A DNA stretch of 44,631 nucleotides from a virus: the IMG/VR virus record IMGVR_UViG_3300044699_000077, positions 1 through 44,631 of that record; one strand, given 5' to 3'. A model generated the notes under the pieces. It had not been told where the DNA came from. It ran no database searches and saw only the letters and a list, made by a program, of their open reading frames with translations. Of the stretch, positions 2,057-40,151 are shown piece by piece. Position 1 is the stretch's first letter. Each line of letters begins with the position of its first letter. Made by a program: the position numbers and the translations under genes.

Positions 2057-2096
2057 CAAAAGTCCAAAAGCCCGGATAGGCGCCTTCCCTTAATAT
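2057..2096 (+). promoter_or_regulatory. late promoter P1 (16-bp element plus -10)
   Basis: CAAAAGTCCAAAAGCC at 2057-2072, then exactly 18 bp, then TAATAT at 2091-2096. The same element and spacing occur at 30393, 33321 and 40112, each ahead of a late module. It should drive the tail-fibre and lysis genes from 2118. The 16-mer is itself two 8-bp direct repeats, CAAAAGTC and CAAAAGCC. Confidence 0.8.
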
Positions 2097-2097
2097 C

Positions 2098-2112
2098 CGC
2101 CCCGAAAGGGCG
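2098..2112 (+). promoter_or_regulatory. inverted repeat covering the ribosome binding site of the 2118 gene
   Basis: CGCCC (2098-2102) pairs with GGGCG (2108-2112) around the loop CGAAA. The right arm overlaps the likely Shine-Dalgarno AAAGGG (2105-2110). The left arm lies between the -10 and the expected start of transcription (~2103), so only read-through RNA should form the hairpin. Confidence 0.5.
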
Positions 2113-2117
2113 CGCCC

Positions 2118-2732
2118 GTGCAGCTTATCGGCAATCCAGTCCCGCTATACCTAGACTCGCGCGGCACCCTGCTCGACGCGGGCAAGATCTATGTCGGGGT
2201 CGCGGGCATGGACCCAGAAGAAAGCCCGATCAGCGTTTATTGGGATGCCGAGTTGACCGAGGAAGCGGACCAGCCCCTTCGAACGCTCGGCGGGCGGATC
2301 GTCAACGGCCAGAACCAGGCCTTCGTGTTCGCCGGGGATGGCGATTACTCCTTGCGGGTTCGCGATGCCGATGACGTCCTGGTCACCAACGTGGTTTCGG
2401 TCGCGGACGTAACCGGCGGTGAAAGCGGAGGCGGGGGAACCTGGCAGCCGCTCGATTCCGACCTGACGGCCATTGCGGCGCTGGTCACTACTCCTTTCGG
2501 CCGTGCTCTGCTCACCCTCGCCAACCAAGCCGCTCTACAGGCAGCCGTGGGGCTTCCGGCGGCCTTGGCTCAAACCGGCGGCACAGTGACCGGGAACATT
2601 CTTCGCGGCGGCGCTGGCATCCACCCTTATTTCTTCGATTCAGACATGGTCGGTGGGCGCATATTCGGCCCTGATCCGGTCGGGACGGCCGACGCAACGT
2701 CGCAGCCCGGCGACATACAGTTGTTCTACTGA
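2118..2732 (+). CDS. tail protein with P22-tailspike-type head-binding domain
   Basis: A 204-residue protein whose first ~100 residues resemble the head-binding domain of P22-like tailspikes: NPVPLYLDSRGTLLDAG, KIYVG, PISVYWDAELTE, QPLRTLGGRIV and DYSLRVRD. This domain normally anchors a fibre to the tail hub. The rest is a short linker and a small C-terminal region, with no receptor-binding enzyme of its own. The enzyme-like domain is in the gene at 3208, so adsorption seems split over several proteins. Start is GTG at 2118, after AAAGGG and directly behind late promoter P1. The stop TGA shares one base with the next ATG. Confidence 0.8.
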   Translation: MQLIGNPVPLYLDSRGTLLDAGKIYVGVAGMDPEESPISVYWDAELTEEADQPLRTLGGRIVNGQNQAFVFAGDGDYSLRVRDADDVLVTNVVSVADVTGGESGGGGTWQPLDSDLTAIAALVTTPFGRALLTLANQAALQAAVGLPAALAQTGGTVTGNILRGGAGIHPYFFDSDMVGGRIFGPDPVGTADATSQPGDIQLFY

Positions 2733-3211
2733 TGCTGGCGGCTCGCGACAACTCCGGCGTCTTGCGCAATATCGCGATGATCCGGGTGCGCGATGCGGGT
2801 AACGTCCTGCGCACGATCAGCGATGGCATGGCTCGAGATGCCGCCGGAGCGCTGCGAGCATTCTTCGGGACGCTTAGCGTATCTGTCGCTCCTGAGGAGG
2901 TAACCGGCGGGGCCAACAGCAGTGGGTCGCCTCAGGTTCAAACCCAGATAGCGACCGCCACGCCAAGCGGCGGAACGAGCCCATACACCTACCTTTGGGA
3001 GCGCACCGACGCTGGCGGGGACACTTGGTCAATCGCCAGCCCGACGAGCGCATCCACCCGCTTTCTTGCTCAAGGCGTTGGTCCGAACACGACCGCAACG
3101 GCCGAGTTCGCCTGCACTGTCATCGACGCGCACGGGCTTGAGGCTGTCTCGGCGGACATAGCGGCGAGTGCCACCAATTTCAGCACATTGGGCGGAGGCC
3201 CGCTTCCATGA
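2732..3211 (+). CDS. tail-associated protein with Ig-like domain
   Basis: A 159-residue protein. The C-terminal ~100 residues (from about residue 50) look like an immunoglobulin-type beta sandwich: VTGGANSSGSP, SPYTYLWERTDAGG, then ATAEFACTVIDAHG. Such domains are common on phage surface proteins and bind weakly to carbohydrate. The first 45 residues carry a repeated NVLRTI-like pattern seen in phage fibre-associated proteins. It overlaps both neighbours by a few bases, which places it in the tail-fibre operon. Exact role unknown. Confidence 0.65.
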   Translation: MLAARDNSGVLRNIAMIRVRDAGNVLRTISDGMARDAAGALRAFFGTLSVSVAPEEVTGGANSSGSPQVQTQIATATPSGGTSPYTYLWERTDAGGDTWSIASPTSASTRFLAQGVGPNTTATAEFACTVIDAHGLEAVSADIAASATNFSTLGGGPLP

Positions 3212-5552: not shown

Positions 5553-5950
5553 TGGGTGAGATCGCCGCAACCCTCGCCGGAAGCTTCCAAAGAGCCCCTT
5601 GGGGCTGGGCGCTTCTCGTCACGGTCATTGTCGCGCTTATCCGCGTGTGGCCGGCCCTGTCCAAGCAGGCGATGGAATCTCGGCTACAGGTGCGGACTGA
5701 GCGCAGATCCGACCTCGGCGACTGCCAGCGCCGCCTCGACGAGATGGGGAAGCGCGTCGACGGTCTCGAGGAGAAGCTGCATCAGACCGATCTTAAGCTG
5801 CTCGGCGCTATCTCCGCATATCGCATCCTCGACGCCGAGGTGGAATCGCGCGACCCTGGCAGCACGGCCCTTAGCCAGGCTCGTCTCGTCATGAGCGCGG
5901 CCTTCACGATGTCTCCGTCAACCGAAGAAGCTCAGGGAAGGCGCCAATGA
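5552..5950 (+). CDS. membrane protein of the lysis cassette (holin- or spanin-like)
   Basis: A 132-residue protein with one transmembrane segment at about residues 17-37 (WGWALLVTVIVALIRVW), followed by a charged helical region (residues 45-95, heptad-like: RLDEMGKRVDGLEEKLHQ). One membrane anchor plus a coiled coil fits an inner-membrane spanin, although spanins usually lie after the endolysin. It immediately precedes the endolysin and overlaps it by four bases. It could instead be a holin partner; no sequence hallmark decides. Confidence 0.6.
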   Translation: MGEIAATLAGSFQRAPWGWALLVTVIVALIRVWPALSKQAMESRLQVRTERRSDLGDCQRRLDEMGKRVDGLEEKLHQTDLKLLGAISAYRILDAEVESRDPGSTALSQARLVMSAAFTMSPSTEEAQGRRQ

Positions 5951-6540
5951 CCGACCTTAACCCCGCCAGCGTCCGCCTATTGCAGCAGCGCCTCGGTGTG
6001 CCCGCAGACGGCGTCCTGGGCCCGTACACGCTTCATGCGGCCCTGAGTGCCCTTGGTGTCGCGGATGCGCCCAGTGAGGCTCCTGCTGCCAAATTGAGCC
6101 CATCCCGCGCCGCGCTCGAACTTATCAAGCAATTCGAGGGCTGCCGGCTCGCCGCATACCCAGATCCCGGCTCCGGCGGAGATCCCTGGACCATCGGCTG
6201 GGGCTCAACCGGCCCCGGCATTCGCAAGGGCGTAACCTGGACCCAGCAGCAGGCAGACGACCGCCTTAAGGCTGATGTGGATCAGTTCGCCGAGAAGGTC
6301 GCCGCTCTCATCGGAGGAGCAAGGACGGCCCAGCATCAATTCGATGCGCTTGTCTCGTTCGCCTACAATGTGGGTGAGGGGAATCTCGCCAGCTCGACCT
6401 TGCTGAAAATGCACAAGTCGGGCGACTATGTTGGCGCCGCAGCGCAATTCGGGCGCTGGAACAAGGCTGCCGGCAAGGCCATGCCTGGCCTAACCCGTCG
6501 CAGAGCCGCCGAAGCTGCTCTCTACCAGGGTGCGGCATGA
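5947..6540 (+). CDS. endolysin, GH24 lysozyme with N-terminal peptidoglycan-binding domain
   Basis: A 197-residue muramidase that cuts the glycan backbone of peptidoglycan. Residues 1-40 form a short peptidoglycan-binding repeat (VRLLQQRLGVPADGVLGPYT). The T4-lysozyme-type catalytic domain follows. Catalytic residues are visible as Glu64 (KQFEGC), Asp73 (YPD) and Thr82 (WTIGWGST), with the family spacing of eight residues between Glu and Asp. No signal peptide is seen, so it should need a holin or other membrane lesion to reach the wall. ATG overlaps the stop of the upstream membrane protein. Confidence 0.9.
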   Translation: MTDLNPASVRLLQQRLGVPADGVLGPYTLHAALSALGVADAPSEAPAAKLSPSRAALELIKQFEGCRLAAYPDPGSGGDPWTIGWGSTGPGIRKGVTWTQQQADDRLKADVDQFAEKVAALIGGARTAQHQFDALVSFAYNVGEGNLASSTLLKMHKSGDYVGAAAQFGRWNKAAGKAMPGLTRRRAAEAALYQGAA

Positions 6541-21878: not shown

Positions 21879-21883
21879 TCCGC

Positions 21884-22108: not shown

Positions 22109-22203
22109 TCGGTTTCTCCACACCACGGAGCAAGCACTGCCACACCCCACTGTGGCCGAACTCCCTGTGTATCATGGGGATTTTTTCCGTCTAGCGGAAT
22201 CGG

Positions 22204-23622: not shown

Positions 23623-23625
23623 CCC

Positions 23626-26037: not shown

Positions 26038-26369
26038 TCGAGCTTCCCTGGCCCCCAGCAACCCTCTCAGGCCACAACACCGGCCATTGGAGAGCCAAGA
26101 GCGCTATTGTCGCTCAGTATCGCACGTGGGCGAAGCTGGCCACCATGGCGGCCAAGCCTCAGATCCCCGAGAAGGGCGACATTCGGGTTGGGATAACCTT
26201 CTATCCCCCGGATCACCGCGGCGATCGGGTCAACTTCCCAAATCGCCTGAAGCCGTATTTCGACGGCATCGCCGATGCCTTGGGCGTGAACGACAACCGC
26301 TTCCTGCCTTCGTACCAGTTCGCCGAGCCGGTCAAGAATCCTCGCATTGTCGTGAGCATCGCGCCGTGA
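26034..26369 (+). CDS. rusA: RusA-family Holliday-junction resolvase
   Basis: A 111-residue endonuclease that cuts four-way DNA junctions. The family signature is clear: ELPWPPATLSGHNTGHWRAK at the N terminus and the acidic active-site block DRVNFPNRLKPYFDGIADAL (Asp64, Lys73, Asp78, Asp81), then GVNDNRFLPSYQF. It should resolve recombination intermediates made by the ERF protein. Start ATG 26034 overlaps the previous TGA. Confidence 0.9.
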   Translation: MIELPWPPATLSGHNTGHWRAKSAIVAQYRTWAKLATMAAKPQIPEKGDIRVGITFYPPDHRGDRVNFPNRLKPYFDGIADALGVNDNRFLPSYQFAEPVKNPRIVVSIAP

Positions 26370-26778: not shown

Positions 26779-27386
26779 GCATCATCGCCACAGCCGTTCA
26801 GCACATGATGGCCGCCGGCATGGACCAGGCGGCCATTGTTGCCGCCGTGGCCGACATGGAAGCACAGATTACGCCGCCCCGATCCAAGGGGGCGGTCAGG
26901 CAAGCTCGCTATGTTGAGCGTCAGAAAGCGTCACAAATGACGGAAAATGACGTTTGTGACGATAATGACGCTCCGGCCCTTTCCCTAGATAAAAAGCCCC
27001 CAGACCCCAAAAAATTAAACCCAATCCCGAGTGTGTGTGAGACGCGCGCGAGGGCTGGGGATTACCACCGGTTGCCGGAAGGCTGGGAGCCTCGGAAGCC
27101 GCTCCCGCCCAAAACTCAGGCCAAGGTCGATCAATGGCCACCCGGGGCGCTCGGGGAAGAGTTGGCCGCGCTCCACCGCTGGGCGGCCAATGCCAAAAAC
27201 GAAGCGGGCAAGGGCCGGAAGAAGGATTGGGACGCGGCCTGGGTAAACTGGATCGAGAGGCGACACGATGAGCGATATGGGCGGGAACGAACCAACGGCA
27301 TGGGAAGACATCAACCCAGCGATGGCCTTAGCGCCACAACCCGTGCCGCCCGCGACGTATTCGGGATTGCGGCCGGCCACTCGTGA
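26775..27386 (+). CDS. probable replication initiation protein (O-like)
   Basis: A 203-residue protein with GTG start at 26775, overlapping the previous TGA. It has an Ala-rich helical N terminus, a basic linker (KGAVRQARYVERQKASQ) and a C-terminal domain with WPPGALGEELAALHRWAANA and KKDWDAAWVNWIERR, a pattern I associate with phage replication proteins that bind the host helicase loader. Its last 119 bases overlap the next gene in another frame. Gene order with the partner at 27268 supports the assignment. Confidence 0.6.
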   Translation: MSIIATAVQHMMAAGMDQAAIVAAVADMEAQITPPRSKGAVRQARYVERQKASQMTENDVCDDNDAPALSLDKKPPDPKKLNPIPSVCETRARAGDYHRLPEGWEPRKPLPPKTQAKVDQWPPGALGEELAALHRWAANAKNEAGKGRKKDWDAAWVNWIERRHDERYGRERTNGMGRHQPSDGLSATTRAARDVFGIAAGHS

Positions 27387-27822
27387 AGAGTTCGGAACCG
27401 AGCTGACCGCCTGCCTCGCCCTTGTCGCCCCTGTCGGCATGGACCAGGAGGCCCGCCGCGAATGGCTGGCAGTGGCTTGGGCGACCCTCCAGCATCTCCC
27501 GGCCGACATGCTGGCCTACGGCTGCAAGAAGGCTCGGGAGACCGCGGATCACCCGTCAAAGATCGTTCCGACCATCATGGCCGAGACCCGAGATTGGTAC
27601 AAAACCCGCCAGAACATCGCGGCGCCGATCGACTGCCTCATGATCGCGGCGCCCACTGAAGAACCCAAGCCCGAAGAGCCGATGACCGCCGAGGACATCG
27701 CCGAGGCCAACATCCTGTTCAAGCGAATGGGGCTCAAGACCCGCTACCGTGAAGACGGGACCGCATATGAATTGAAGCTTGGCGAGCCCGACCCGGTTCA
27801 ACCCAGCGAGCCAGAAGCGTGA
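27268..27822 (+). CDS. probable replication partner protein (P-like)
   Basis: A 184-residue protein: a Pro-rich N-terminal 35 residues, a helical domain (REEFGTELTACLALVAPVGM, WLAVAWATLQHLPADML, AYGCKKARETADHPSKIVP) and an acidic tail. The middle phrase is common in phage proteins next to initiators, where it may act as a helicase loader. ATG 27268 is preceded by GAGGCG. The first 119 bases are also the end of the upstream gene. Confidence 0.6.
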   Translation: MSDMGGNEPTAWEDINPAMALAPQPVPPATYSGLRPATREEFGTELTACLALVAPVGMDQEARREWLAVAWATLQHLPADMLAYGCKKARETADHPSKIVPTIMAETRDWYKTRQNIAAPIDCLMIAAPTEEPKPEEPMTAEDIAEANILFKRMGLKTRYREDGTAYELKLGEPDPVQPSEPEA

Positions 27823-27838
27823 TGCGATACGGATTGAA

Positions 27839-27882: not shown

Positions 27883-27978
27883 GAAAGCCGGGGCCGAAGG
27901 CATCGCCCAAATCTATTCAATCTCAAGCACTTAACAATCAACCAGGAGAGTAGGGTGGCGAGTAAAGGAGGAACACAA

Positions 27979-28353
27979 GTGTTCGAGCAGACCATTGCAC
28001 ATTACGAGGCGATCAGCCGCCAGCGCCCGCTGGATGACTTTGAGAGCGCCAAGCTCGAGCGCGCAGTCCGTCAGGCAAGGGAGAGCGCGGGAGGACAGCG
28101 CCGGCCTTGGCTGCCGGAGCATGACCAGACCTTGATCCGCGCCGTGCGACTGCTCGCCAATGACGGGAAACGCCGCAAGCGTAGGAAGATCCCGGAGATT
28201 GCGGCTCAGCTTGGGCGCTCAACGGGTGCTGTCCGCAGGCGTCTGACCATCCTGCGACAGAAGGGGAAAGCGGGATATATCTCCCCCGTCAACGGCACCG
28301 GCCGCTATAGCCGCACAAGTCCAATGGGCGAAATGGCTCAGGCTGGGGTATGA
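27979..28353 (+). CDS. helix-turn-helix protein before the terminase
   Basis: A 124-residue basic protein from GTG 27979, chosen for the strong AGGAGG seven bases upstream; another GTG at 27955 has none. It has a helical N terminus and a Myb/HTH-like part (LPEHDQTLIRAVRLLANDG, KRRKIPEIAAQLGRSTGAVR, RRLTILRQKGK). It is probably DNA-binding, either a late regulator or a packaging accessory. It precedes terS by a few bases. Confidence 0.65.
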   Translation: MFEQTIAHYEAISRQRPLDDFESAKLERAVRQARESAGGQRRPWLPEHDQTLIRAVRLLANDGKRRKRRKIPEIAAQLGRSTGAVRRRLTILRQKGKAGYISPVNGTGRYSRTSPMGEMAQAGV

Positions 28354-28360
28354 TGGGCTA

Positions 28361-28942
28361 ATGAGCCTCACCGCCAAACAGCAAGCGTTCGTCGCTGAAT
28401 ATTTGATCGACCTGAACGCCACTCAGGCCGCGATCCGGGCAGGATATAGCCCGGCAACCGCCTATTCGATCGGGCAGGAGAACCTGAACAAACCTGAAAT
28501 CGCCGCAGCGCTTGAGATAGTCATGGCAGAGCGGGCGGAACGGACTCAAATCACTGCTGATCGCGTGCTGACAGAGCTTGGCAAACTGGGCTTCTCGGAT
28601 ATTCGCCGAGCCGTGAGATGGTTCTCGAATGCGACCGTAGCTGCTGTGGATCAGGACATCGACCAGCAGATGGAGGAAGAGGGCGAGGTCCGCTTTGCCA
28701 TCGCCAACCAAGTCGAACTGATATCGAGCGGGGACATTGATGACGAAACAGCCGCGGCGATTCAGGAAATCGGTCAATCGGCAACCGGTGCGCTCAAGGT
28801 GAAGCTTTACGACAAGAGGGCGGCCCTGGTCGACATCGGGCGCCATCTCGGCATGTTCACCGATAACATCCGTCTAACCGGCAAGCTCGATGTAACCAGG
28901 ATCGAGGAAGTCATTGTCGACCCTGCAAATCCAGACGCCTAG
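28361..28942 (+). CDS. terS: terminase small subunit
   Basis: A 193-residue DNA-recognition subunit of the packaging motor (Terminase_2 type). The N-terminal region SLTAKQQAFVAEYLIDLNAT, QAAIRAGYSPATAYSIG is the typical helix-turn-helix. The middle is an acidic oligomerisation region; the C terminus (GHLGMF-like IGRHLGMFTD) is also family-typical. It should bind the pac site, often within or next to this gene. It overlaps terL by 29 bases. Confidence 0.9.
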   Translation: MSLTAKQQAFVAEYLIDLNATQAAIRAGYSPATAYSIGQENLNKPEIAAALEIVMAERAERTQITADRVLTELGKLGFSDIRRAVRWFSNATVAAVDQDIDQQMEEEGEVRFAIANQVELISSGDIDDETAAAIQEIGQSATGALKVKLYDKRAALVDIGRHLGMFTDNIRLTGKLDVTRIEEVIVDPANPDA

Positions 28943-30149
28943 GGCGTTCAAGCCGCTCCTGGTCCCGTCTCGCTACAAAGGAGCGCATGGTGGGCGAGGG
29001 TCCGCCAAGTCGCATTTCTTCGCCAGCCGCGTGGTCAAGCGCTGCCTGAAGGAGGAAACATTCGTCGTCTGCGTTCGCGAGAACCAGAAGTCACTCGATC
29101 AGTCGGTTAAGAAGCTGATCGAGGACAAGATCCAGGACTTTGGCCTCGGCGGCCATTTCCGCATCCTCAACTCGCATATCGAGCCGGCGGTTGGTGGGCG
29201 CATCATCTTTCAGGGGATGCAAAACCACACGGCGGAGTCGATCAAGTCGCTTGAGGGTTATGACATTGCGTGGGTCGAAGAGGCACAGTCGCTAAGCCAG
29301 CGGTCCTTGGACTTGCTCCGCCCGACGATCCGAAAAGATGGCTCGGAACTGTGGTTTTCATGGAATCCCAACCTCCCGACTGATCCCGTCGACGTGCTTT
29401 TGAGGGGAGAGCACCCCCCGCCTGATGCCATTGTCGTGCAAGCCAACTATCGGGACAACCCATGGCTTCCGGATGTGCTGCGCGCCGAGCTCGAATATGA
29501 CCAGCGGCGCGACCCGGACAAGTTCGCACACATCTGGCTTGGGGGCTATCAGCGGAACTCAGAGGCCAGGGTCTTCAAGAACTGGCGCGTCGAAGAGTTC
29601 GAAAGCCCTTCGAATGTCGAATATCGTCTAGGCGCTGATTTCGGGTTCAGCACCGATCCATCATGCGCCGTCCGGTGCTTCGTCGACGGAACGCGCCTCT
29701 ACATCGATTATGAGGCTTGGGGCCTTGGTGTCGAGATCGTGAACCTGCCCAAATTGTTCATGTCGATCCCGGATGCCGAGAAATACTGGATGACGGCCGA
29801 CAGCTCGCGGCCGGATACGATCAGCCATCTTCGAAAGCATGGCTTTCCTCGGATCATGCCGGCGGTGAAGGGCGCGCGCTCGCTTGAAGAGGGGATCGAA
29901 TTTCTTAAGGGCTACGACATCATCGTTCACCCTCGCTGCCAGCATACGATCGACGAATTGACCCTCTACAGCTTCAAGGTGGACAAGCTGACCAGCTTGG
30001 TCACCAACGAGCTCGAGGACAAAGATAATCATCTGATCGACTCGCTGCGCTATGCGAATGAGGGCGCGCGGCGCGCACTGGCGAACAAGCCGAGGCAGGA
30101 GTCGGTGTCGATCCCCTCACTCAAAACGGCATTCAACAGGAGGGGATGA
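28914..30149 (+). CDS. terL: terminase large subunit
   Basis: A 411-residue ATPase/nuclease that drives DNA into the head (Terminase_3/PBSX type). The ATPase P-loop is GGRGSAKS (26-33); the Walker B acidic pair is Glu122-Glu123 (WVEEAQ). The nuclease domain has Asp242 (GADFGF), Asp296 (ADSS) and Asp376 (HLIDSLRY). This class usually packages by headful from a pac site, which fits the circularly permuted ends. The start is TTG at 28914. Confidence 0.95.
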   Translation: MSTLQIQTPRAFKPLLVPSRYKGAHGGRGSAKSHFFASRVVKRCLKEETFVVCVRENQKSLDQSVKKLIEDKIQDFGLGGHFRILNSHIEPAVGGRIIFQGMQNHTAESIKSLEGYDIAWVEEAQSLSQRSLDLLRPTIRKDGSELWFSWNPNLPTDPVDVLLRGEHPPPDAIVVQANYRDNPWLPDVLRAELEYDQRRDPDKFAHIWLGGYQRNSEARVFKNWRVEEFESPSNVEYRLGADFGFSTDPSCAVRCFVDGTRLYIDYEAWGLGVEIVNLPKLFMSIPDAEKYWMTADSSRPDTISHLRKHGFPRIMPAVKGARSLEEGIEFLKGYDIIVHPRCQHTIDELTLYSFKVDKLTSLVTNELEDKDNHLIDSLRYANEGARRALANKPRQESVSIPSLKTAFNRRG

Positions 30150-30392
30150 TAGGTTGCGGGCCGGACTCGATACCGGCTCCCTGCGATTTGACCGTAGCGC
30201 TTAGACCCTCGCGCTTTCAAACGAAGGAGCTACCCTCGCCATCCACCGCGATTAGCCCACGGCCGTAACCTAGGCTCACCAGCGCTTCAGTCCGGACTGT
30301 CACGCTAATTGCAGGGCCTAACCGTCGAATAACGGGCGTGTCCATCCACGCTGCCACAACCATAGGTCATCTTATCACAGCATCGCCAAGAG
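30150..30392. other. gene-free stretch between terL and the portal promoter
   Basis: 243 bp with no convincing gene on either strand. On the minus strand around 30150-30190 there is a sequence resembling a tRNA T arm (GCCGG...CCGGC around TATCGAGT), but the loop is one base too long and no complete cloverleaf can be drawn. It may be a remnant. Confidence 0.4.
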
Positions 30393-30432
30393 CAAAAGTC
30401 CAAAAGCCGCTCCTGACACCTGAACCTATACT
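30393..30432 (+). promoter_or_regulatory. late promoter P2 (portal)
   Basis: CAAAAGTCCAAAAGCC (30393-30408), 18 bp, then TATACT (30427-30432). Identical element and spacing to P1, P3 and P4. Expected transcription start is near 30439. Confidence 0.8.
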
Positions 30433-30434
30433 CT

Positions 30435-30453
30435 CGCCCCGACCCAAGGGGCG
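30435..30453 (+). promoter_or_regulatory. inverted repeat covering the portal ribosome binding site
   Basis: CGCCCC (30435-30440) pairs with GGGGCG (30448-30453). The right arm overlaps the Shine-Dalgarno AAGGGG (30446-30451). The left arm lies mostly upstream of the expected start of P2 transcripts. Confidence 0.5.
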
Positions 30454-30456
30454 CCG

Positions 30457-32661
30457 ATGGCCTATTCCGAACAGAGTGAAGCGGTAGACGACAAGCCGGC
30501 CGGCGAGGGTTCGGACGAAGTCTTCCGCCGCGCCATGAAGCGGTTCGATGCCACGGTTATCCCTCAACAGGAAATCCGCGCCCACGCTTTGCTGTGCAGG
30601 CGCTTCATTTCCATCCCAGGCGCTCAGTGGGAAGGGGAGTGGGGCGAGCAGTTCGACAATTCCATCAAGGTAGAGATCGACAAGCTGTCCAAGGGCGTCG
30701 ACAAGATCGTCAACGACTACCGCCAGAATCGCATCGTGCCCGACTTCCGGCCGGCGGGCGGCGACAGCGATCCTGAGACGGCATCAACCCTGGACGGCAT
30801 CCACCGAGCCGATAGCTACAAGTTCAAGGCCCAGCAGGCTCGCGACAACGCATTCGAGGAGGCGGCGGCCGGCGGCTTTGGGGCCTATCGCCTCAGGAAC
30901 GAATGGGACGATCCTTTTGACAAGGATTCGGACGCCCAGCGCATCAACCCGGCCATGCTCATCGCCGATGCTGACCAGCGGGTGTTCTTCGACGGCAATT
31001 CCAAGCTCTACGACAAGTCGGATGCCCGCTTCGCCTTCGTCATCACCGCCGACACGAAGGATGCATTCGAAGAGGAATATCCGGACTGCCATTCTTCTTG
31101 GCCAGACACGGGCCTGCGCCCGAGCTCCTACGACTGGTACACACCGGAAGTCGTGCTCAAGTGCGAGTATTACGAGGTCGAGGAGAAGAGCGAGAGGCTG
31201 CTGATCCTCCGCCAGGGCATCTCGACCGAAGAAGAGCGGATCTGGTCATCGGAGATCAGCACGGAAGACCTCGAGGAGCGCAAGACCAAGGGCTGGACCG
31301 TCACGACCCGCATGATGAAGCGGCGTCGGGTCCATAAATATCTGCTGAGCGGGCAGGAGGTTCTGAGGGATCAGGGCCACATCGCGGGCGACTGCATTCC
31401 GATTGTCCCGGTCTATGGAAAGCGCTGGTTCGTCGACAATCAGGAGCGCTTCCGGGGCTATGTGTCGAAGCGCATGGACTCACAGCGCCGCTACAATGCG
31501 AGCGTGTCAAAGCTGGCTGAGACGGACGCCCTGGCGCCGCGCGAGATCCCCATATTCGCGGCCGAGCAGATGCCGCCGAACCTTGCGGCGCTGTGGGCGG
31601 AGCAGAATGTAAAGCGCCACCCATATGCGCTGATCAATCCGCTACTAGACCCGATGACCGGTCAAATCGTCTCGGCCGGCCCGATCGGGAAGGTTGAGCC
31701 TCCTTCTGTCGGCCCCGTCACTGCCGCCCTGCTCCAGATCGCGGGCGCGGACCTGTCCGACGAGGATCAGGACGTCGACGAGGTCAAGGCGAACACCTCG
31801 GCAGAGGCCATGGACATCGCTGCCACCCGGATTGATGCGAAGTCGGGCATCTATCTCGACAATATGCGCCAGTCGGTCCAGCGCGAGGGCGAGATTTATC
31901 TCTCAATGGCTCGCGAGGTTTATTACGAGCCCGGACGTACCGTTGAAACCATGTCAGAGGACGGCGACGACGGCGCGGCTACGCTTCATGAGCCCGTAAC
32001 CGACGGTCGCGGCAGATTCCGAATTTCCAACGATTTCAGCCGCGGGAAATACAAGGTCATCGCCGATGTGACCGAGGCGACTGCGACCCGACGCGACAAG
32101 ACGGTCAAGTCGAGCCTCAACATTGCTACTGTCGCTCAGGCTGCCGGCGACCAGGCCTTGGCCCGTATCGCCACCCTCACAGCCGTGATGAACCAGGACG
32201 GTGAGGGGATGAGCGATTTCCAGAAATACGCCCGTCGCCAGCTTGTCGCGGAAGGCGTTGTCGAGCCGACCGACGAAGAAAAGCAGCAGATGGAAGAGGC
32301 GCAGCAGGGAGCCGAGCCTGATCCGCAGGCCGAACTCGTCGCGGCTCAGGCGGCAGTGCTCGCAGCCGAGGCTAAGCTGAAAGAGGCTCAGACGCTCAAG
32401 GCGAAGGCGGATACGATCAAGTCGCAGGCTGAAGCAATGTTGAAGGGCGCTCAGACCGATGCGCTCGGCGGGCCATCCGAGGCGCCGCGTGTTCCCGATG
32501 GGCTCGAAGCGGCCGAAGCTGCCGCGCGGGTAGACAAGACCCGCGCCGAGGCAGAGCGCATCCGCACCGAGGCGGCTCATTTGCCGGCCGAGATCAGCAT
32601 TGCCGCGCACAAGGCCGCTACCGATCGCATGAAGATTCGGCGGGGGAGTGATTTGAATTGA
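30457..32661 (+). CDS. portal protein, P22 type
   Basis: A 734-residue portal forming the dodecameric ring through which DNA passes. The size and pattern fit the P22 portal: KLSKGVDKIVNDYRQNRIVP, AAAGGFGAYRLRNEWDD, ADQRVFFDGNSKLYDKSDA, IPIVPVYGKRWF, then EVKANTSAEAMDIAATRID. The last ~110 residues are a long Ala/Glu/Lys coiled coil, like the barrel of P22. It begins behind late promoter P2 and its stop overlaps the next TTG. Confidence 0.9.
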   Translation: MAYSEQSEAVDDKPAGEGSDEVFRRAMKRFDATVIPQQEIRAHALLCRRFISIPGAQWEGEWGEQFDNSIKVEIDKLSKGVDKIVNDYRQNRIVPDFRPAGGDSDPETASTLDGIHRADSYKFKAQQARDNAFEEAAAGGFGAYRLRNEWDDPFDKDSDAQRINPAMLIADADQRVFFDGNSKLYDKSDARFAFVITADTKDAFEEEYPDCHSSWPDTGLRPSSYDWYTPEVVLKCEYYEVEEKSERLLILRQGISTEEERIWSSEISTEDLEERKTKGWTVTTRMMKRRRVHKYLLSGQEVLRDQGHIAGDCIPIVPVYGKRWFVDNQERFRGYVSKRMDSQRRYNASVSKLAETDALAPREIPIFAAEQMPPNLAALWAEQNVKRHPYALINPLLDPMTGQIVSAGPIGKVEPPSVGPVTAALLQIAGADLSDEDQDVDEVKANTSAEAMDIAATRIDAKSGIYLDNMRQSVQREGEIYLSMAREVYYEPGRTVETMSEDGDDGAATLHEPVTDGRGRFRISNDFSRGKYKVIADVTEATATRRDKTVKSSLNIATVAQAAGDQALARIATLTAVMNQDGEGMSDFQKYARRQLVAEGVVEPTDEEKQQMEEAQQGAEPDPQAELVAAQAAVLAAEAKLKEAQTLKAKADTIKSQAEAMLKGAQTDALGGPSEAPRVPDGLEAAEAAARVDKTRAEAERIRTEAAHLPAEISIAAHKAATDRMKIRRGSDLN

Positions 32662-32900
32662 CCAAGGCAATAGGCATTCACATTGTGCCTAGTCAGGGCA
32701 AATGGAGCGTTCGAACGGCGGGGGCAGGTCGCGCATATCGAGCCAATCTAACGTCAAAGCAGGCTCTTGATGTTGCGATGAACCTTTCGCCCAAGAGGGC
32801 GGCAAAACTGTACGTTCATGGCGAGGATGGCCGAATCTCCAAGCGTCTTTGGCTGCCAGTGTTGCGAGGCTCCCGCCAATCGAGGGGCGCTCGACGTTGA
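32658..32900 (+). CDS. DUF2188-like small protein
   Basis: An 80-residue basic protein with TTG start overlapping the portal stop. The phrase IHIVPSQGKWSVRTAGAGRA and the closing YVHGEDGRISKR recall DUF2188-type small proteins, which carry a short beta domain of unknown use. It lies between portal and scaffold, where accessory genes often insert. Confidence 0.6.
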   Translation: MTKAIGIHIVPSQGKWSVRTAGAGRAYRANLTSKQALDVAMNLSPKRAAKLYVHGEDGRISKRLWLPVLRGSRQSRGARR

Positions 32901-33310
32901 GCGACGAAGCGCATGTTCCGTACTGCGACATGGGGACGTGGCCTTGCTATGTCGGCTTCACGGTCTCTCAAAAAGCATTCAAGCGAGAAATGGAGCGTAT
33001 TTGCCCGAAGCAGGAGGTGCCCTTTCTGGGCTCAAGTCGAGCGAACGCCACCACTCATTTCCTCACCAAAGATGGGGCAACGACAGCCATCATCGCGATG
33101 ATGTCGCCGAAAAGGGCCAAAGTGAGCTTTGAGCAGTATGCGGCCTTAGTGGCGCACGAAGCTGTTCACGTGGCGCAACAGATTTGGCTAGATATCGGCG
33201 AGAAAGAGCCTGGCAAAGAAGCCGAGGCCTATTTCGTGCAGCACATCGTCCAGTTCTGCCTTCAGGAGGCATACAAAACTGGCCGTTGCCGCCGCCTGAT
33301 ACCGGCCTGA
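32897..33310 (+). CDS. HExxH-type putative metallopeptidase
   Basis: A 137-residue protein from TTG 32897, overlapping the previous TGA; the longer frame to 32849 is inside that gene. The zinc-site helix is HEAVHVAQQIW (HExxH), followed ~20 residues on by EAEAYFVQHIVQF, where a third ligand may be. The family occurs in phage genomes near head genes. A role in processing head or scaffold proteins is possible; equally it may be a moron. Confidence 0.6.
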   Translation: MSDEAHVPYCDMGTWPCYVGFTVSQKAFKREMERICPKQEVPFLGSSRANATTHFLTKDGATTAIIAMMSPKRAKVSFEQYAALVAHEAVHVAQQIWLDIGEKEPGKEAEAYFVQHIVQFCLQEAYKTGRCRRLIPA

Positions 33311-33320
33311 GATGTCGTAG

Positions 33321-33360
33321 CAAAAGTCCAAAAGCCGAGCCCGCCCAATCCCCCTAAAAT
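33321..33360 (+). promoter_or_regulatory. late promoter P3 (scaffold and coat)
   Basis: CAAAAGTCCAAAAGCC (33321-33336), 18 bp, then TAAAAT (33355-33360). Unlike the others, no clear inverted repeat follows and the start codon is farther away (33413, with GGGG before the ATG). Confidence 0.8.
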
Positions 33361-33412
33361 GCGCCTCAATCAGCACCCGCCGAGCTGCGATCGGTGAGCG
33401 AATGGGGATCAC

Positions 33413-34225
33413 ATGGCAGTAGAGCCGGAGGACGACGAGCTTCTTCTAGACCAGCCAGCGGATGAAGGCGGAGACGCCGACGACCAGCAGGACGATCAGG
33501 AGGAACTGGAAATCACCTTCGGCGATGAGGCGGCGCCGGCCTCGGGAGAAGCTGAAACCGGACTGGCGAGGCATCTCCGCGAAGAGATCAGGCGACGGGA
33601 CAAGGAAATTGCGGACCTTCGCAAGGCCCAGCCCGCCCCTCAGAAGATCGAAGTTGGTCCGCGTCCGACCATGGACCGATCCGACATCGATTATGACGAG
33701 GAAAAATTCGTCGCTGAACTCGAAGCGTGGAATGCTCGAAAGGCACAGGCTGAACAGGCCGAAAGCCAAGCAGAACGGCAACAGCGGGAAGCCAACGAAG
33801 CGTGGCAGAACGAGCTGAGGCAGCACGAGGCCAAGAGATCGGCCCTCAAGTTCCCGGATGCTCAGGACGCCGAAGAGGTGGCGGTCACCGCTCTGGACCA
33901 GGTCCAGCAGGCGGTCATCGTCAAGGTGGCGGATAATTCCGCTCTCGTCCTCTACGCCCTCGGCAAGAACCCGGCCAAGCTCGGCCAACTCTCCCAAATC
34001 AAAGATCCCCTGAAGCTGGCCGCAGCCGTGGCCAAACTGGAAGGAACCCTGAAAGTGACAGCACGGCGCAAGGCCCCCGAACCCGAAGAGATCGCAAGCG
34101 GCAGCGCCCGCGTGACCCAGGGGAAGGATCCGGTACTCGAACGGCTCGAGAAAGAGGCGGCGCGGACGGGGGATCGCTCAAGGGTGATCGCTCACAAAGC
34201 CTCGCAGCGCACTTCGGGCAAATGA
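33413..34225 (+). CDS. scaffolding protein
   Basis: A 270-residue, strongly charged and helical protein. The first ~50 residues are acidic (EDDELLLDQPADEGG), the middle is coiled coil (LREEIRRRDKEIADLRKAQ, then QAEQAESQAERQQREANEAW), and the C terminus is basic (LEKEAARTGDRSRVIAHKAS), as in P22-type scaffolds that contact the coat. It is directly upstream of the coat gene, behind P3. Confidence 0.85.
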   Translation: MAVEPEDDELLLDQPADEGGDADDQQDDQEELEITFGDEAAPASGEAETGLARHLREEIRRRDKEIADLRKAQPAPQKIEVGPRPTMDRSDIDYDEEKFVAELEAWNARKAQAEQAESQAERQQREANEAWQNELRQHEAKRSALKFPDAQDAEEVAVTALDQVQQAVIVKVADNSALVLYALGKNPAKLGQLSQIKDPLKLAAAVAKLEGTLKVTARRKAPEPEEIASGSARVTQGKDPVLERLEKEAARTGDRSRVIAHKASQRTSGK

Positions 34226-34251
34226 CAACCGCCGTCGCGAGGAATTGAACG

Positions 34252-35538
34252 ATGACCGCCAACACCGCAAAGACCGTAGTCGAGACCTTTGACGACATGG
34301 TCGAGGGCTTCGATGACATGCTTGTCGTGGCTCAGGAAGTCGAGAAGTACAATCTTCCCGGCGGCCCGGCCCAGCATCAGCAGATGAACGATAAGGTGTG
34401 GCGGCCTCAGCCGTACATCCCTGCCGTCTATGACGGGTTCGATCAGACCAGCAACTTCGGCGACATCACTCAGCTGTCGGTGCCCGTCTCGGTCGGTATC
34501 CACAAGGTCACGCCCATCAAGATCGGGCCGAAGGACGGTCGCGACAAGGGCAATATCCAGCGCTACTTCCGGGACGCCGCGCTGAGCCTCGCCAGCCAGG
34601 TCAACCTCTCTGTCTTCAACACCGCCGTGAACTGGGCAACGCTGGTCAGCAAGCGCACGGTCGCTCCGACCGGCTATGACGACTTGGCGGCGATGGGTGC
34701 CATCATGACGGAGCAGGGCCTGCCCAACTTCGACAAAAAGGCGTTCTATTCGGCGCGAGATTATCTCTCCATGGCGGGCAACATCGCCAAGCCGGCAACG
34801 AGCGACAGCCCGCTCTCCCGCACCGCCTATGAGCGCGCCTACGTCAAGACGATTGGCAATTTCGACCTGTTTGAGAACGACCAGACGAAGATCCTGCCCG
34901 CGGCAACCGGTGTGGGCGTCACGATCACGAACACCCAGCCGCTCTATTACACCCCCGTCGCCGCCACGCTCGATACGGACGGGAATCCGACCAACGTCGA
35001 CAACCGCACTCAGCTTATCTCGATCGCGGTCACCAGCGGCACGGTCAAGGCGGGTGATGCCTTCACCATTGCCGGTGTCAACTCGCTCCATCACATTTCG
35101 AAGGGCGATACGGGCCAGCTGAAGACCTTTCGCATCATCTCGATCGTCACGGGCTCGGGCGGTACGGGTACCGTTCGCATCTCACCGCCGATCATCTCAG
35201 GAGGCGGCAGCACCCGCGCTGAGCTGGAATATAAGAATGTCACCGCGACCCCGGCCAACGGTGCCGTGATTACGTTCCTGAACACCGTCTCGGCTCCTGC
35301 CAACGTGTTTTTCCACAAGCGCGCGATCGAGCTCATTCCGGGCACCTTCGCTGTCGATCCGGACGCTGGCTGGACGGTGGCAACACGGGCGACCACGCCG
35401 AAGCTCGGGCTTCCGATCATGCTGACCGGGCAGGGGAACATCAACGATCTGAGCGGCAAGTGGCGTCTCGACATCGATTATGGCGTCGGCGCCCTCCAGC
35501 CGGAGATGATCGGCCTCCAGCTCTTCAACCAGACCTAA
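34252..35538 (+). CDS. major coat protein, P22 gp5-like
   Basis: A 428-residue coat protein. The N-terminal helices and loop (NYNLPGG-like VEKYNLPGGPAQHQ, WRPQPYIPAVYDGF), the spine helix region and a large insertion at ~220-340 (beta-rich: VGVTITNTQPLYYTPVAA, LISIAVTSGTVKAG) fit the P22 HK97-fold with an I-domain. The C terminus (WRLDIDYGVGALQPEMIGLQ) is typical. Its position after the scaffold supports the assignment. Confidence 0.9.
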   Translation: MTANTAKTVVETFDDMVEGFDDMLVVAQEVEKYNLPGGPAQHQQMNDKVWRPQPYIPAVYDGFDQTSNFGDITQLSVPVSVGIHKVTPIKIGPKDGRDKGNIQRYFRDAALSLASQVNLSVFNTAVNWATLVSKRTVAPTGYDDLAAMGAIMTEQGLPNFDKKAFYSARDYLSMAGNIAKPATSDSPLSRTAYERAYVKTIGNFDLFENDQTKILPAATGVGVTITNTQPLYYTPVAATLDTDGNPTNVDNRTQLISIAVTSGTVKAGDAFTIAGVNSLHHISKGDTGQLKTFRIISIVTGSGGTGTVRISPPIISGGGSTRAELEYKNVTATPANGAVITFLNTVSAPANVFFHKRAIELIPGTFAVDPDAGWTVATRATTPKLGLPIMLTGQGNINDLSGKWRLDIDYGVGALQPEMIGLQLFNQT

Positions 35539-35618
35539 CCATGGCGAGGTTTCAGAGGGGCACAACGGACCATGACAGCGACGGGCATATGGGTGGCTCG
35601 CGCAAGGGAGACAATGCG

Positions 35619-36077: not shown

Positions 36078-36098
36078 GGCGAAGAGCCGGGCAATAAG

Positions 36099-36129: not shown

Positions 36130-36142
36130 CGTAGGGACAGGC

Positions 36143-36586: not shown

Positions 36587-36587
36587 C

Positions 36588-37967
36588 ATGCAGATCCCGC
36601 TCCTTTCAGGCGTCGGGGCAGACGAAACGGCCGAATTTGCCGTCCGCTATCCCCTAAACCTCGAGCCGGTGGCGATCGACAACAAGATCGCGAAGGGGCA
36701 GCTTCGCGCAACAGCCGGCGCGATACCGTTCGCTACAGGCCCGGGGATCGATCGCGGCGGGATCGTCTGGAACGGTCAGCATTATCGGGTCATGGGAACC
36801 AAGTTCGTTCGGGTGAACGCGGACGCCAGCGTTGACACGATCGGCGACGTCGGCGGGTCCGGACCCGTGGCGATGGACTATTCCTTTGACCGCCTCGGCA
36901 TCGCGAGCGGCGGGAACCTCTACTATTTCAACGGCTCTGCCCTGATCGAGGTCACCGACCAGGATCTGGGCAACGTCATCGATATGATCTGGATCGACGG
37001 CTATTTCATGACGACGGACGGCAGCTACACCATCGTCACCGAGCTTGCCGATTCAACCTCCATCCTGCCGCTCAAATATGGCTCGGCGGAGGAGGACCCG
37101 GACATGGTCACGGGCCTCCTCAAGTTCCGCGAAGAGGCCTACGTCTTTGGCCGCAACACGATCCAGGTCCATCAGAACGTCGGCGGCAACGGCTACCCGT
37201 TCCAAACCCTTCCCGGCGCCACCATACCCATGGGCTGTGTAGGTCCCGCGGCGAAAACCCTGTTCGCGGGCAGCTTCGCATTCGTCGGCTCGGCTCGGAA
37301 TGAGGCCTTGGGCGTCTACCTGGCTGGGGACGGAAACGCCTCGAAGATCAGCACGCGCGCAGTTGACGACGCCTTGGCCGCTGTAGCCGATGAGGGCTCG
37401 ATCGTGCTCGAAAAGCGGGTCAGCCGGGATGAGCAGCGGTTGCTCGTCCACCTTCCCTCGGAAACGTGGGGTTTCCTCGCTGGGGCCACTCAGAAAGTCG
37501 GGGAATCGGTCTGGTATCGAGCTAGGTCCGGGATGGGCGATCCCTACCGGCTTCGCGGCGCTGTCGACGTGAACGGGCGCGTCATGGTCGGAGACGCGGA
37601 TTCCAACGCAATCGGCATCCTGAGCGAGGACGTCTCCAGCCATTTCGGGGAGCCGGCGGAGTGGCAGTTCGACGCGGGGCTGATCTACAATGGCGGCAAG
37701 GGCGGGATTGTCCATTCGATTGAGCTTGTCGGGCTTCCCGGTCGCGGCGGCAGGGATATGACGGTTTTCCTGTCGCTGACCCGGGACGGCCAGCAATTCA
37801 GCGCGGAGCGCCCTGTTACGGTACGATCCGGCGAGCGGGGCAAAAGGCTGCACTGGCGGCCGCATCAGCGGTTCCGAAGCTGGATGGGGCTTAGATTCCG
37901 GGGATATGACACGGGCCTGCCTGGTTTCACCGCGATAGAGGCGGACGTTCGCCCGCTCGCCGCATGA
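36588..37967 (+). CDS. P22 gp10-like packaged-DNA stabilisation protein
   Basis: A 459-residue tail-hub protein that closes the portal after packaging and holds the tail needle. The start QIPLLSGVGADETAEFAVRY, LNLEPVAIDNKIAKGQLRA, and the repeated beta-propeller-like segments (GGNLYYFNGSALIEV, FVGSARNEALGVYLAG) fit gp10. It ends at the start of the gene at 37964. Confidence 0.9.
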   Translation: MQIPLLSGVGADETAEFAVRYPLNLEPVAIDNKIAKGQLRATAGAIPFATGPGIDRGGIVWNGQHYRVMGTKFVRVNADASVDTIGDVGGSGPVAMDYSFDRLGIASGGNLYYFNGSALIEVTDQDLGNVIDMIWIDGYFMTTDGSYTIVTELADSTSILPLKYGSAEEDPDMVTGLLKFREEAYVFGRNTIQVHQNVGGNGYPFQTLPGATIPMGCVGPAAKTLFAGSFAFVGSARNEALGVYLAGDGNASKISTRAVDDALAAVADEGSIVLEKRVSRDEQRLLVHLPSETWGFLAGATQKVGESVWYRARSGMGDPYRLRGAVDVNGRVMVGDADSNAIGILSEDVSSHFGEPAEWQFDAGLIYNGGKGGIVHSIELVGLPGRGGRDMTVFLSLTRDGQQFSAERPVTVRSGERGKRLHWRPHQRFRSWMGLRFRGYDTGLPGFTAIEADVRPLAA

Positions 37968-38665
37968 TCCGCCGTTCGGACCTCGCCAAGGCGTTTCCCA
38001 ACAATCCTCGGCTCGTCGCCGAGATGGAGGCGCAGAGCCAGTCCGTCGTCAATCACGATGGTGAGATCAAGGAAGCGGCTGCGACCGCAGCGAGCGCGGG
38101 CGAGGCTGCCGGACAGGCGCTCGGGGAGGCTTTGGCCAAGCAGGCAGCAAATGAGAACCTGACGGCGATTTCGGACCTACCGCCGGAGCCTGGAGCGATC
38201 GAGCAGATTGGCACCGGGATATTTGCCATCCGCCCGATCGATACCGATGACACCTCAAGCCTCCTTTCTCGAGCAATAGCCGACACCCGTTATGCTTCGG
38301 GTAGCATCACCGATATCGCTGCCGGCCTGGTCCAGCGCATTGCCGGTCAAGCCCTGAGCGGACACCGGGCCGTCCTGATCGCGGTCGATAACAAGGCCTA
38401 CTATTCCAATCCGGACGCAACGGCTCGCTTCACGATCGGCATCACGACAGGGGCCGCCGCGCTTGGGGCGACGGCAACCATCCAGCTTGACGGCGAAATC
38501 GAGGAGCCAAGCTGGTCATGGTCCGCATCGGAGATCGTCTGGCTCGGCGCGAGCGGCGCCCTGACCCAAGCCGTCCCGACCACTGGCTACGCCTTCCAAG
38601 TCGGGATTCCGATGGGGCCGACACGGCTTCGGATCGAGCCGCAGCTAATCGCGAAGCTTTCATAG
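37964..38665 (+). CDS. tail needle or fibre protein (gp26 position)
   Basis: A 233-residue protein. Residues ~15-70 form a coiled coil (HDGEIKEAAATAASAGEAAG, then QALGEALAKQAANENL). The C-terminal ~90 residues are a beta domain ending in TGYAFQVGIPMGPTRLRIEP, typical of phage fibre tips. The position after gp10 is that of the P22 tail needle, but the C-terminal domain is more fibre-like. Confidence 0.65.
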   Translation: MIRRSDLAKAFPNNPRLVAEMEAQSQSVVNHDGEIKEAAATAASAGEAAGQALGEALAKQAANENLTAISDLPPEPGAIEQIGTGIFAIRPIDTDDTSSLLSRAIADTRYASGSITDIAAGLVQRIAGQALSGHRAVLIAVDNKAYYSNPDATARFTIGITTGAAALGATATIQLDGEIEEPSWSWSASEIVWLGASGALTQAVPTTGYAFQVGIPMGPTRLRIEPQLIAKLS

Positions 38666-38678
38666 AGGGAAAGGGGAA

Positions 38679-39191
38679 ATGGCGAACAACGGCAAATACC
38701 TGACGGTAAACGCAGGGGTCATCGAAGAGTCGACGGGCGTCAACACCTCGGCCGGCGCTGGCGATGCCGGCAAGATCGCCAAGCTCGACGCATCGGGCCG
38801 CTGGGATCCAAGCATGATGCCGGTTGGCGTTGCGGCCGATACGGCATCGATCACGACATCTGAGGCGCTATCGGCCGGCGATTGGGTCAACGTCTGGAAC
38901 TCGACCGGCGTTAAGGTCCGCAAGGCCGATGCGACTACAGCGGGCAAGGAGGCCGATGGGTTCGTGTTGTCCGCGTTCGGCAGTGGCGCCACGGCCCTGG
39001 TCTATTTCGAGGGCACGAACACCGCCGTCTCAAGCCGTACCGTTGGCGCAAAGCAATGGCTCGGCACCACGGCTGGCGCGGGTGTCGAAACCGCTCTCAC
39101 GGGCAGCGGCAATGTCGTCCAGCAGCTCGGCAAGGCCATCTCCGCGACCTCAGTTTCGTTCGAGCCGCAACAGCCGATCACGCTGGCCTAA
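38679..39191 (+). CDS. structural protein, capsid- or fibre-associated
   Basis: A 170-residue protein of a family widespread in phages: YLTVNAGVIEESTGVNTSAG, DAGKIAKLDASGRWDPSMMP, then KADATTAGKEADGFVLSAFG and LVYFEGTNTAVSS. It is usually encoded among head or fibre genes and may be a cement protein or fibre adaptor. The following gene starts within its stop (TAATG). Confidence 0.7.
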   Translation: MANNGKYLTVNAGVIEESTGVNTSAGAGDAGKIAKLDASGRWDPSMMPVGVAADTASITTSEALSAGDWVNVWNSTGVKVRKADATTAGKEADGFVLSAFGSGATALVYFEGTNTAVSSRTVGAKQWLGTTAGAGVETALTGSGNVVQQLGKAISATSVSFEPQQPITLA

Positions 39192-40111
39192 TGGTTTCTC
39201 GTCGCGCCTTGGTCTTGGTTGACGGTGGGATCGCTGAAATTCCGTTCGGCGACACGCTGGCGGGAACGTCCGGAAACCTGCCCACTGACGGGTCTGCAGG
39301 CATGTATTTGCGAAAGGCATCGGCCGCCGATTACGACGCTGTTTTCGCCTCTTTGTACCTAACCGACCTCGCCGGCACAGGCGGGGGTGTAAATACGGCT
39401 TTAGCGATCAACGTGGGCTCGGCCGGCGCCTTCGTGACCTTTAATGGCGCGCTCGGCACCCCGTCATCGGGCAATCTCGCCAATTGTACCTTCCCGACCC
39501 TCAACCAGAACACGACCGGTTCGGCGGCCACCCTTACGACCTCGCGAAACATCGACGGTCAAGCGTTCAACGGTTCGGCCGATATCACCGTCATCGCCCC
39601 GGGCACTCACGCCGCCACCTCGAAGGCAACGCCCGTCGATGCCGACGAGTTGCCGCTGGTCGATAGCGCCGCGTCGAACGTCCTCAAAAGGCTGACTTGG
39701 GCCAACCTCAAGGCGACCTTGAAAACCTATCTCGACACACTTTATCCGCCGATCCCCACCGCTTGGACGACGTATACACCAACGGTTGCCGCCACGTCGG
39801 GCACATACACAAGCGCCTCCGCCGCCGGGGCCTATAAACAAGTCGGGAAAATCGTGTTTCTTCGCATCAAAGTGACGATCACAACCAACGGGACGGCGGC
39901 GGTAAATATGACGGTGACGGCTCCTTCGGGACTAACCGGTATGAGCGCGCAGAACCAGCCTTTCGCCTGTGTAGAAAACGGGGTGACCGGCTTTGTCGGT
40001 CGCGCCTATATCGGGAATACGACCACGATCACCGTCTCGAAATACGACGGGACCTATCTCGGCGGGAACGGCTACGTCATCGAGATAGGAGGGTCCTATG
40101 AGACGCCTTAA
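39191..40111 (+). CDS. tail fibre protein
   Basis: A 306-residue protein from ATG 39191. The middle holds repeats typical of phage fibres: GTPSSGNLANCTFPTLNQNT, then TGSAATLTTSRNIDGQAFNG and SADITV. The C-terminal ~110 residues are Thr-rich and beta (TVAATSGTYTSASAAGAYKQ), probably a receptor-binding tip. The next late promoter (P4) begins right at its stop codon. Confidence 0.75.
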   Translation: MVSRRALVLVDGGIAEIPFGDTLAGTSGNLPTDGSAGMYLRKASAADYDAVFASLYLTDLAGTGGGVNTALAINVGSAGAFVTFNGALGTPSSGNLANCTFPTLNQNTTGSAATLTTSRNIDGQAFNGSADITVIAPGTHAATSKATPVDADELPLVDSAASNVLKRLTWANLKATLKTYLDTLYPPIPTAWTTYTPTVAATSGTYTSASAAGAYKQVGKIVFLRIKVTITTNGTAAVNMTVTAPSGLTGMSAQNQPFACVENGVTGFVGRAYIGNTTTITVSKYDGTYLGGNGYVIEIGGSYETP

Positions 40112-40151
40112 CAAAAGTCCAAAAGCCCCTCTGAGCGCCCGAAGGTAATAT
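40112..40151 (+). promoter_or_regulatory. late promoter P4 (ejection proteins)
   Basis: CAAAAGTCCAAAAGCC (40112-40127), 18 bp, then TAATAT (40146-40151). Same element and spacing as P1-P3. Expected start near 40158. Confidence 0.8.

Follow-up and report, generated by a model that had tools for sequence, protein, structure and literature searches.

How does a phage with the gene order of P22 turn on late genes that are served by promoters dispersed over its genome? We address this question for IMG/VR virus record IMGVR_UViG_3300044699_000077, a P22-type phage record whose whole length of 44,631 bases is the window analysed here. A first-pass annotation had noticed a 16-bp element, CAAAAGTCCAAAAGCC, in four identical copies at a fixed distance upstream of -10 hexamers, and had suggested that it is the site of a phage activator or a sigma-appropriating protein sitting in the -35 place. 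Here we report that the strand, the position and the 18-bp gap of this element are kept across dozens of relatives, in support of that suggestion, and that a small gene directly upstream of terS (terminase small subunit), here called act, encodes a candidate reader. Based on these observations, we suggest, at a probability of about three in four, that the element is the site of a phage-encoded late activator replacing the -35 contact at dispersed late promoters, its reader most likely being the Myb-like helix-turn-helix (HTH) protein encoded by act.

The element at late promoters of the window and its relatives

All four copies of CAAAAGTCCAAAAGCC lie on the + strand (Table 1), and our recount agrees that there is no other: no fifth copy occurs within three mismatches on either strand of the window, a tolerance at which dinucleotide-shuffled sequences give a mean of 0.19 matches. 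The element heads the list of direct-repeat families in the window; it is built of two 8-bp units in direct repeat and is not a palindrome. Its gap to the -10 hexamer is exactly 18 bp at all four sites, as had been claimed, and gene matches confirm that the sites head the tail/lysis, portal, scaffold/coat and ejection genes. At spacers of 16-18 the best match to TTGACA averages 2.21 of 6 letters, against 2.29 at random places, so the element promoters have no -35 hexamer. The proposal that the element stands in for the -35 contact is consistent with this and with the position of the candidate reader beside terS.

A degenerate copy, CACAAGTCCAATGGGC, which matches the element at 12 of 16 letters, sits inside the 3' end of act, where several relatives also have a site. 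It precedes TATGAT (28349-28354) by 19 bp, and this hexamer ends 6 nt before the ATG of terS; from its position we infer a degenerate fifth late-promoter site heading that gene.

Related phages were collected with a portal query, which gave 47 loci, and with a portal alignment, whose 305 relatives were reduced to the best 80. The original proposal named an outcome that would count against it, namely relatives with the gene order intact and the element gone. What we see is divided: the exact 16-mer is lost, and the promoters of the portal, scaffold, coat and ejection genes carry a diverged version instead, such as CAAAGGTTCAAAAGCC in locus L043, GAATTGTCCAAACGCC in L046, CAAATGTTCAAACGCT/G in L062 and AAAGCCTTAATCGCCT in L061. 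A blind search for pairs of 16-mers that differ by at most three mismatches and both lie 18 bp before TAnnnT found 85 pairs in the window and the 47 loci, a few of them not the element, against 4 in the reversed sequences. Over 91 loci the same search gave 98 pairs in 37 loci, with 5 pairs in 4 loci for reversed sequences and 2 in 2 loci for the opposite strand. Gaps of 8, 28 or 38 yielded just 2-4 pairs; gaps adjoining 18 score nearly as high because a 16-mer can slide in register.

The same arrangement appears when each phage is searched with its own sequence. In 48 of 83 loci the 16-mer of the portal promoter is found again elsewhere with its gap unchanged, against 1 recurrence in the minus-strand control and 4 in the reversed one. 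Searching 51 loci with their own portal versions, with TA required at a gap of 17-19, gave 135 sites on the + strand (including the 51 portal sites that supplied the versions), one on the minus strand and none with one shuffle per element; the gap is 18 in 122, 19 in 8 and 17 in 5. By tblastn position, these sites head the portal (51), scaffold (32), coat (13) and first ejection genes (9), the 2118 gene (1) and unassigned genes (29). Non-portal copies with up to two mismatches, counted with no -10 required and duplicates removed, number 65 on the + strand and 0 on the minus strand, and TA lies exactly 18 bp downstream in 55 of them, with six exceptions at 17 or 19. The portal-promoter elements used in the 51-locus search and in the Mantel test below were hand-picked, while the 83-locus test, the 65-copy test and the database scan described next are less selected.

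The consensus drawn from 119 distinct sites is nAA(A/T)TGT(T/C)CAAACGC-N18-TAnnnT, in which the last T reaches 76% although only TA was required. Scanning the whole of IMG/VR with a consensus pattern returned 51 stretches, 37 of them with P22-type genes or the activator (29 of 43 newly cut stretches, many of which recut known contigs, plus 8 loci already in the set). All 17 stretches with at least two sites are among these 37, and the other 14 are single matches. Homologues of the 2118 gene are preceded by the element in five other loci as well (L159, L171, L174, L177 and L184).

Two further observations concern the element outside this pattern. In one clade (L115, L116, L118, L119, L121, L131, L135 and L138-L140), GGTAATCC or GGTAAGCC replaces TAnnnT at the portal -10, and the element GTTCAATCG lies at about the usual gap upstream of the portal. 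The exact 16-mer of the window was also found in 21 stretches of viral contigs and, with a loose -10, in 17 of genomes, at one match each, which we read as chance: no activator homologue occurs in any of the 38 loci, 3 have TAnnnT at a gap of 18, and 6 weakly match any of 20 window proteins (the terminase large subunit, terL, at 28% in one; the head closure protein Hc3 at 24-25% in five).

The candidate reader and its rivals

The product of act matches phrog_323 (E 9.3e-7, over positions 82-141 of a 319-position profile) and otherwise gives just sub-threshold matches to HTH families and none to a named family. A profile of 23 homologues matches c-Myb (E 7.7e-11), and the half-site CAA(A/T)CG presumably resembles Myb sites. 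The predicted structure (predicted local distance difference test score 80.5, predicted template modelling score 0.53) combines an N-terminal helical hairpin with a three-helix HTH, and VIA-align placed it near Lrp/AsnC and homeodomain HTHs at Z up to 6.7, a generic HTH resemblance. The literature within our coverage, which left most subscription journals outside, holds no description of the element or the activator; this is weak evidence of novelty, and the protein would represent an undescribed activator family.

A profile search found act homologues at the corresponding place in relatives. Counting the window, 52 loci extend 3 kb or more beyond the portal on its upstream side, and 43 of them have one on the + strand no more than 6 kb upstream of that gene, mostly at 1.5-2.5 kb. 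The other nine are L070, L078, L088, L126, L146, L148, L152, L153 and L154; L070 is similar to L084, in which act lies 3.5 kb before the portal, and the L070 contig possibly ends short of the gene. Second, partial activator-like matches were seen further upstream at L061:4296-4535, at L057:3-266 and at 27257-27412 of the L143 record. Two pattern scans for more homologues failed because the protein varies too fast, one giving none and the other three loci on contigs already in the set. A prophage search of 385 alphaproteobacterial genomes returned none at E 1e-100, which, for want of a positive control, shows nothing.

The system extends to a cultured phage, Sphingopyxis phage VSN-002, whose host belongs to the Sphingomonadaceae (PMC9302152). 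Its act homologue adjoins the annotated terS (domain E 7e-22 and 3.5e-19), and it carries an element of its own, AATTTGCCCAAATGAA, 18 bp before TA upstream of both the coat gene and a DNA-transfer gene, with a two-mismatch copy at the end of the activator gene.

A recurring element is present in 33 of the 43 loci with act and in 1 of 7 without it (Fisher p 0.003), or in 2 of 8 when L070 is kept (p 0.008); L088 could not enter the test, and since the loci are related both values are indicative only. Portal-bearing loci without act thus lack a recurring element in 6 of 7 cases (6 of 8 with L070), and the sole positive among the seven, L148, is a weak, chance-like match.

Element and protein also vary together. 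Starting from 49 loci with act, 11 had no assignable element, and of the 38 left, removal of identical domains gave 34 and of the fragmentary L063 gave 33. Over these 33 loci the Mantel correlation of element distance is 0.54 with HTH distance and 0.59 with portal distance. Given the portal, the partial correlation with the HTH is 0.25, reached by 12 of 2000 permutations, and that with the N-terminal part is 0.08. Most of the match between element and HTH is therefore shared ancestry, with an HTH-specific residual. The clearest swap sets L077 and L079 against L087: their portals are 85% identical, while the element differs at 12 of 16 positions (that of L087 assigned by eye) and the HTH at 51-54%.

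Several results weigh against this reading. Ten of the 43 loci with act showed no recurring element, and L149, counted among the 33 positives, looks like a chance match. The portal 16-mer did not recur in 35 of the 83 loci, many of them short. No TA stands at a gap of 17-19 in three copies that front terS (L115, L118 and L119), nor in one in L121. The partial correlation of element with portal given the HTH, 0.37, exceeds the 0.25 for the HTH given the portal, and a Foldseek search of the act model against the PDB gave nothing with E under 0.5, and so no confident fold relative. Lastly, L044 and L047 share the element and have portals 90% identical, but 74% of HTH positions differ between the two, which contradicts a simple co-evolution of element and act as judged from these sequences; the L047 record holds just one activator homologue. 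That homologue (L047:7179-8180) has an HTH of a type unlike that of L044, and a PRNKTESA stretch near the C-terminus is common to both proteins; a gene swap is a possible explanation of the difference.

Synteny and covariation are what identify act as the recogniser, and a pair such as L044 and L047, with one element and very different candidate proteins, leaves room for another phage protein as the reader, for example the small terminase encoded next door or an unrecognised early gene. We regard this as unlikely, although it is the strongest of the alternatives, since act co-occurs with the element (a test run for the act family alone), changes along with it between L077/L079 and L087, and has a DNA-binding fold according to its model and its c-Myb profile match. 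The element could otherwise be the operator of a repressor that overlaps the promoters and silences the late genes in the prophage. The window encodes an integrase and the site does overlap the -35 position; against this, it is a direct repeat where a palindrome might be looked for, the assignable sites precede structural genes, and promoters without any -35 would have little basal activity to repress, which makes such an operator very improbable. Least probable of all is a host factor, either an alternative sigma or a host regulator, as reader: the -10 is of a housekeeping-like kind and host sigma would presumably remain necessary, but the sequence of the element varies between phages while strand, gap and position stay constant, a pattern unexpected unless the hosts differ as much.

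If the act protein is the late activator, it would appear in the delayed-early phase and occupy the pair of 8-bp direct repeats, which span about -46 to -31, with two protomers probably lying in tandem. Once bound, it would hold host RNA polymerase on promoters with a usable -10 (TAnnnT) and no -35; as this would happen at all element promoters, the portal, scaffold/coat, ejection, tail/lysis and, via the degenerate site, terminase genes would switch on together. From sequence we infer all of this: that the protein binds, that two protomers share the repeats, that it activates, and when and where transcription begins.

Predicted late transcripts, their leaders and the gene layout

The distance from the -10 to the start codon bears on the form of the late messengers. 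Of 43 distinct portal promoters, 39 have the start codon 6-9 nt past the -10 and 4 have it 21-24 nt past, and a start codon 6 nt after the -10 coincides with the usual +1. The portal transcripts of most relatives thus look leaderless, and would begin at or within a few nucleotides of the start codon. Among 76 other distinct sites, a start 5-10 nt past the -10 was found at most unassigned genes (21 of 27) and at three of the nine ejection genes, and at none of the scaffold (0 of 27), coat (0 of 12) and 2118-type (0 of 1) sites. The corresponding distances in the window are 21, 24, 52 and 24 nt, which predicts a leader on each of its own four late mRNAs. By eye, short inverted repeats directly follow three of its four -10 hexamers (2098-2112, 30436-30452 and 40153-40167; e.g. 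GCCCCgacccaAGGGGC), and similar ones follow the -10 in L044, L045, L047 and L114.

The scaffold leader contains a putative, conserved H-type RNA pseudoknot. In the window it starts 11 nt past the -10 of the scaffold promoter and would lie within the transcript expected there, a point in favour of the promoter reading. In an alignment of 24 of 27 leaders (A3; L048, L049 and L136 were left out as looking different), 98.1% of cells are paired, against 23-46% in slid controls; because these sequences also served to propose the structure, the pair counts are biased in its favour. The covariation score is 0.457, against 0.193 in shuffled alignments (0 of 500 as high). Rfam gave no family at gathering score in the window or seven relatives, and three weak matches in 33300-34300 miss the leader. 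Scaffold autoregulation is known from P22, and the scaffold protein might act on this pseudoknot to control its own translation. The leader of the coat promoter in L043:9932-9985 and 11 other loci (alignment A4) reads CAGC..CCTCC.GGCTG..GGGAG and could form a similar pseudoknot.

The gene order around these promoters is of the P22 type (terS, terL, portal, scaffold, coat, Hc3 head closure, ejection proteins), with a tail-fibre-like protein and an endolysin on the opposite side (Table 1). A DNA search with 30000-34500 of the window found no match among named phages. Elsewhere in the window we noted a likely DNA methyltransferase at 24637-25365 (N6_N4_Mtase match), a second methyltransferase-like gene at 22645-23622, judged by eye, and a RusA-like resolvase at 26025-26369, whose match is below the cut-off. 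An 809-aa open frame on the minus strand (21817-24246), antisense to + strand genes and with almost no family match, is probably a chance frame in GC-rich DNA.

Table 1. Features of the window discussed in the text
Feature	Position	Strand	Details
Element copy 1, tail/lysis operon	2057..2072	+	-10 TAATAT 2091-2096; GTG of 2118 lies 21 nt past -10
First gene of tail/lysis operon	2118..2732	+	no family; followed by tail-fibre-like gene and endolysin
Endolysin	5947..6540	+	
Candidate late activator act	27955..28353	+	132 aa, directly upstream of terS; N-terminal helical hairpin and Myb-like HTH
Degenerate fifth site CACAAGTCCAATGGGC	28314..28329	+	4 mismatches to the element
terS, terminase small subunit	28361..28942	+	
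terL, terminase large subunit	28914..30149	+	
Element copy 2, portal promoter	30393..30408	+	-10 TATACT 30427-30432; ATG 30457 lies 24 nt past -10
Portal protein	30457..32661	+	
Element copy 3, scaffold/coat promoter	33321..33336	+	-10 TAAAAT 33355-33360; ATG 33413 lies 52 nt past -10
Putative H-type pseudoknot, scaffold leader	33372..33396	+	33372-33374 with 33384-33386; 33378-33383 with 33391-33396
Scaffolding protein	33413..34225	+	
Major head (coat) protein	34252..35538	+	
Head closure protein Hc3	36588..37967	+	
Element copy 4, ejection genes	40112..40127	+	-10 TAATAT 40146-40151; ATG 40176 lies 24 nt past -10
DNA ejection protein	40176..40841	+	phrog_598

Known late-control systems and the wider phage group

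Among known systems the closest in operation is that of phage Mu, in which the late activator C serves four late promoters (lys, I, P and mom) with non-consensus -10 and -35 and binds upstream of the -35 (PMC4461284). Both systems have dispersed late promoters served by a phage-coded DNA-binding protein, here a candidate, with its site next to the -35 region, and the present one has the look of a late regulon that is distributed, depends on an activator and works as Mu C does. It differs from Mu in three respects: act is Myb-like, the site is a direct repeat whose end lies 18 bp from the -10, and most relatives seem to have leaderless portal transcripts. Mu C belongs to the Mor/C family, and none of the 23 act homologues has a Pfam match to that family at E 0.01; Mor and C chains reach only E 0.5-2.7 against the act model in Foldseek and are not among the 50 VIA-align matches listed. 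The Ogr/Delta family, the zinc-finger activators of P2, was likewise not found in the Pfam scan of these 23 homologues.

In lambdoid P22-like phages, Q antitermination turns on the late operon (PMC2629481). The present phages share the structural gene order of P22 and, unlike P22 and lambda under Q control, have several activator-type promoters. The Q families PF06530 and PF03589 were each found in 0 of 9 records, which may be incomplete, and both were found in an E. coli control.

GafA, the activator of the Rhodobacter gene transfer agent, is described as a protein of 382 residues with a DnaA-like and a sigma-like domain that contacts the omega subunit, its relatives being annotated as DUF6456 or HTH proteins (PMC6363796, PMC9638019). 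GafA resembles act in being phage-related, alphaproteobacterial and an HTH protein, and it directly activates structural genes, binding near the -10/-35. The act protein has no match to DUF6456 and, with 132 aa and one HTH, does not have the two-domain architecture of GafA. PHROG 323, a "transcriptional regulator, D5-like" family, weakly matches the HTH in 11 of the 23 homologues (best E 3e-8), a likeness that in the window protein covers only part of the profile. Sigma factors have sigma-70 regions 2 and 4; the act family gives only sub-threshold matches to region 4 or to HTHs like those of extracytoplasmic function sigma factors, with no region 2 listed. In sigma appropriation of the T4 MotA/AsiA type a protein remodels sigma region 4, and the position of the element at about -46 to -31 is compatible with such a mechanism.

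We propose tentatively, and with somewhat less than even confidence, that a private promoter code, changing fast, has taken the place of Q antitermination in a wide P22-type group, one cultured member of which infects Sphingomonadaceae. Each lineage would have its own Myb-like activator and its own 16-bp element, the activator would take the place of the sigma -35 contact, and the late mRNAs would be leaderless. For a large and mostly uncultured group of phages with P22 structural genes, in which no known late regulator was found, the activator-dependent regulon described above is a likely mechanism of late control. If the private code holds as well, the lineages would be insulated from one another's late regulators. 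Their protein-site pairs would form a natural series for studying how the specificity of an activator changes, and may supply orthogonal promoters for alphaproteobacteria.

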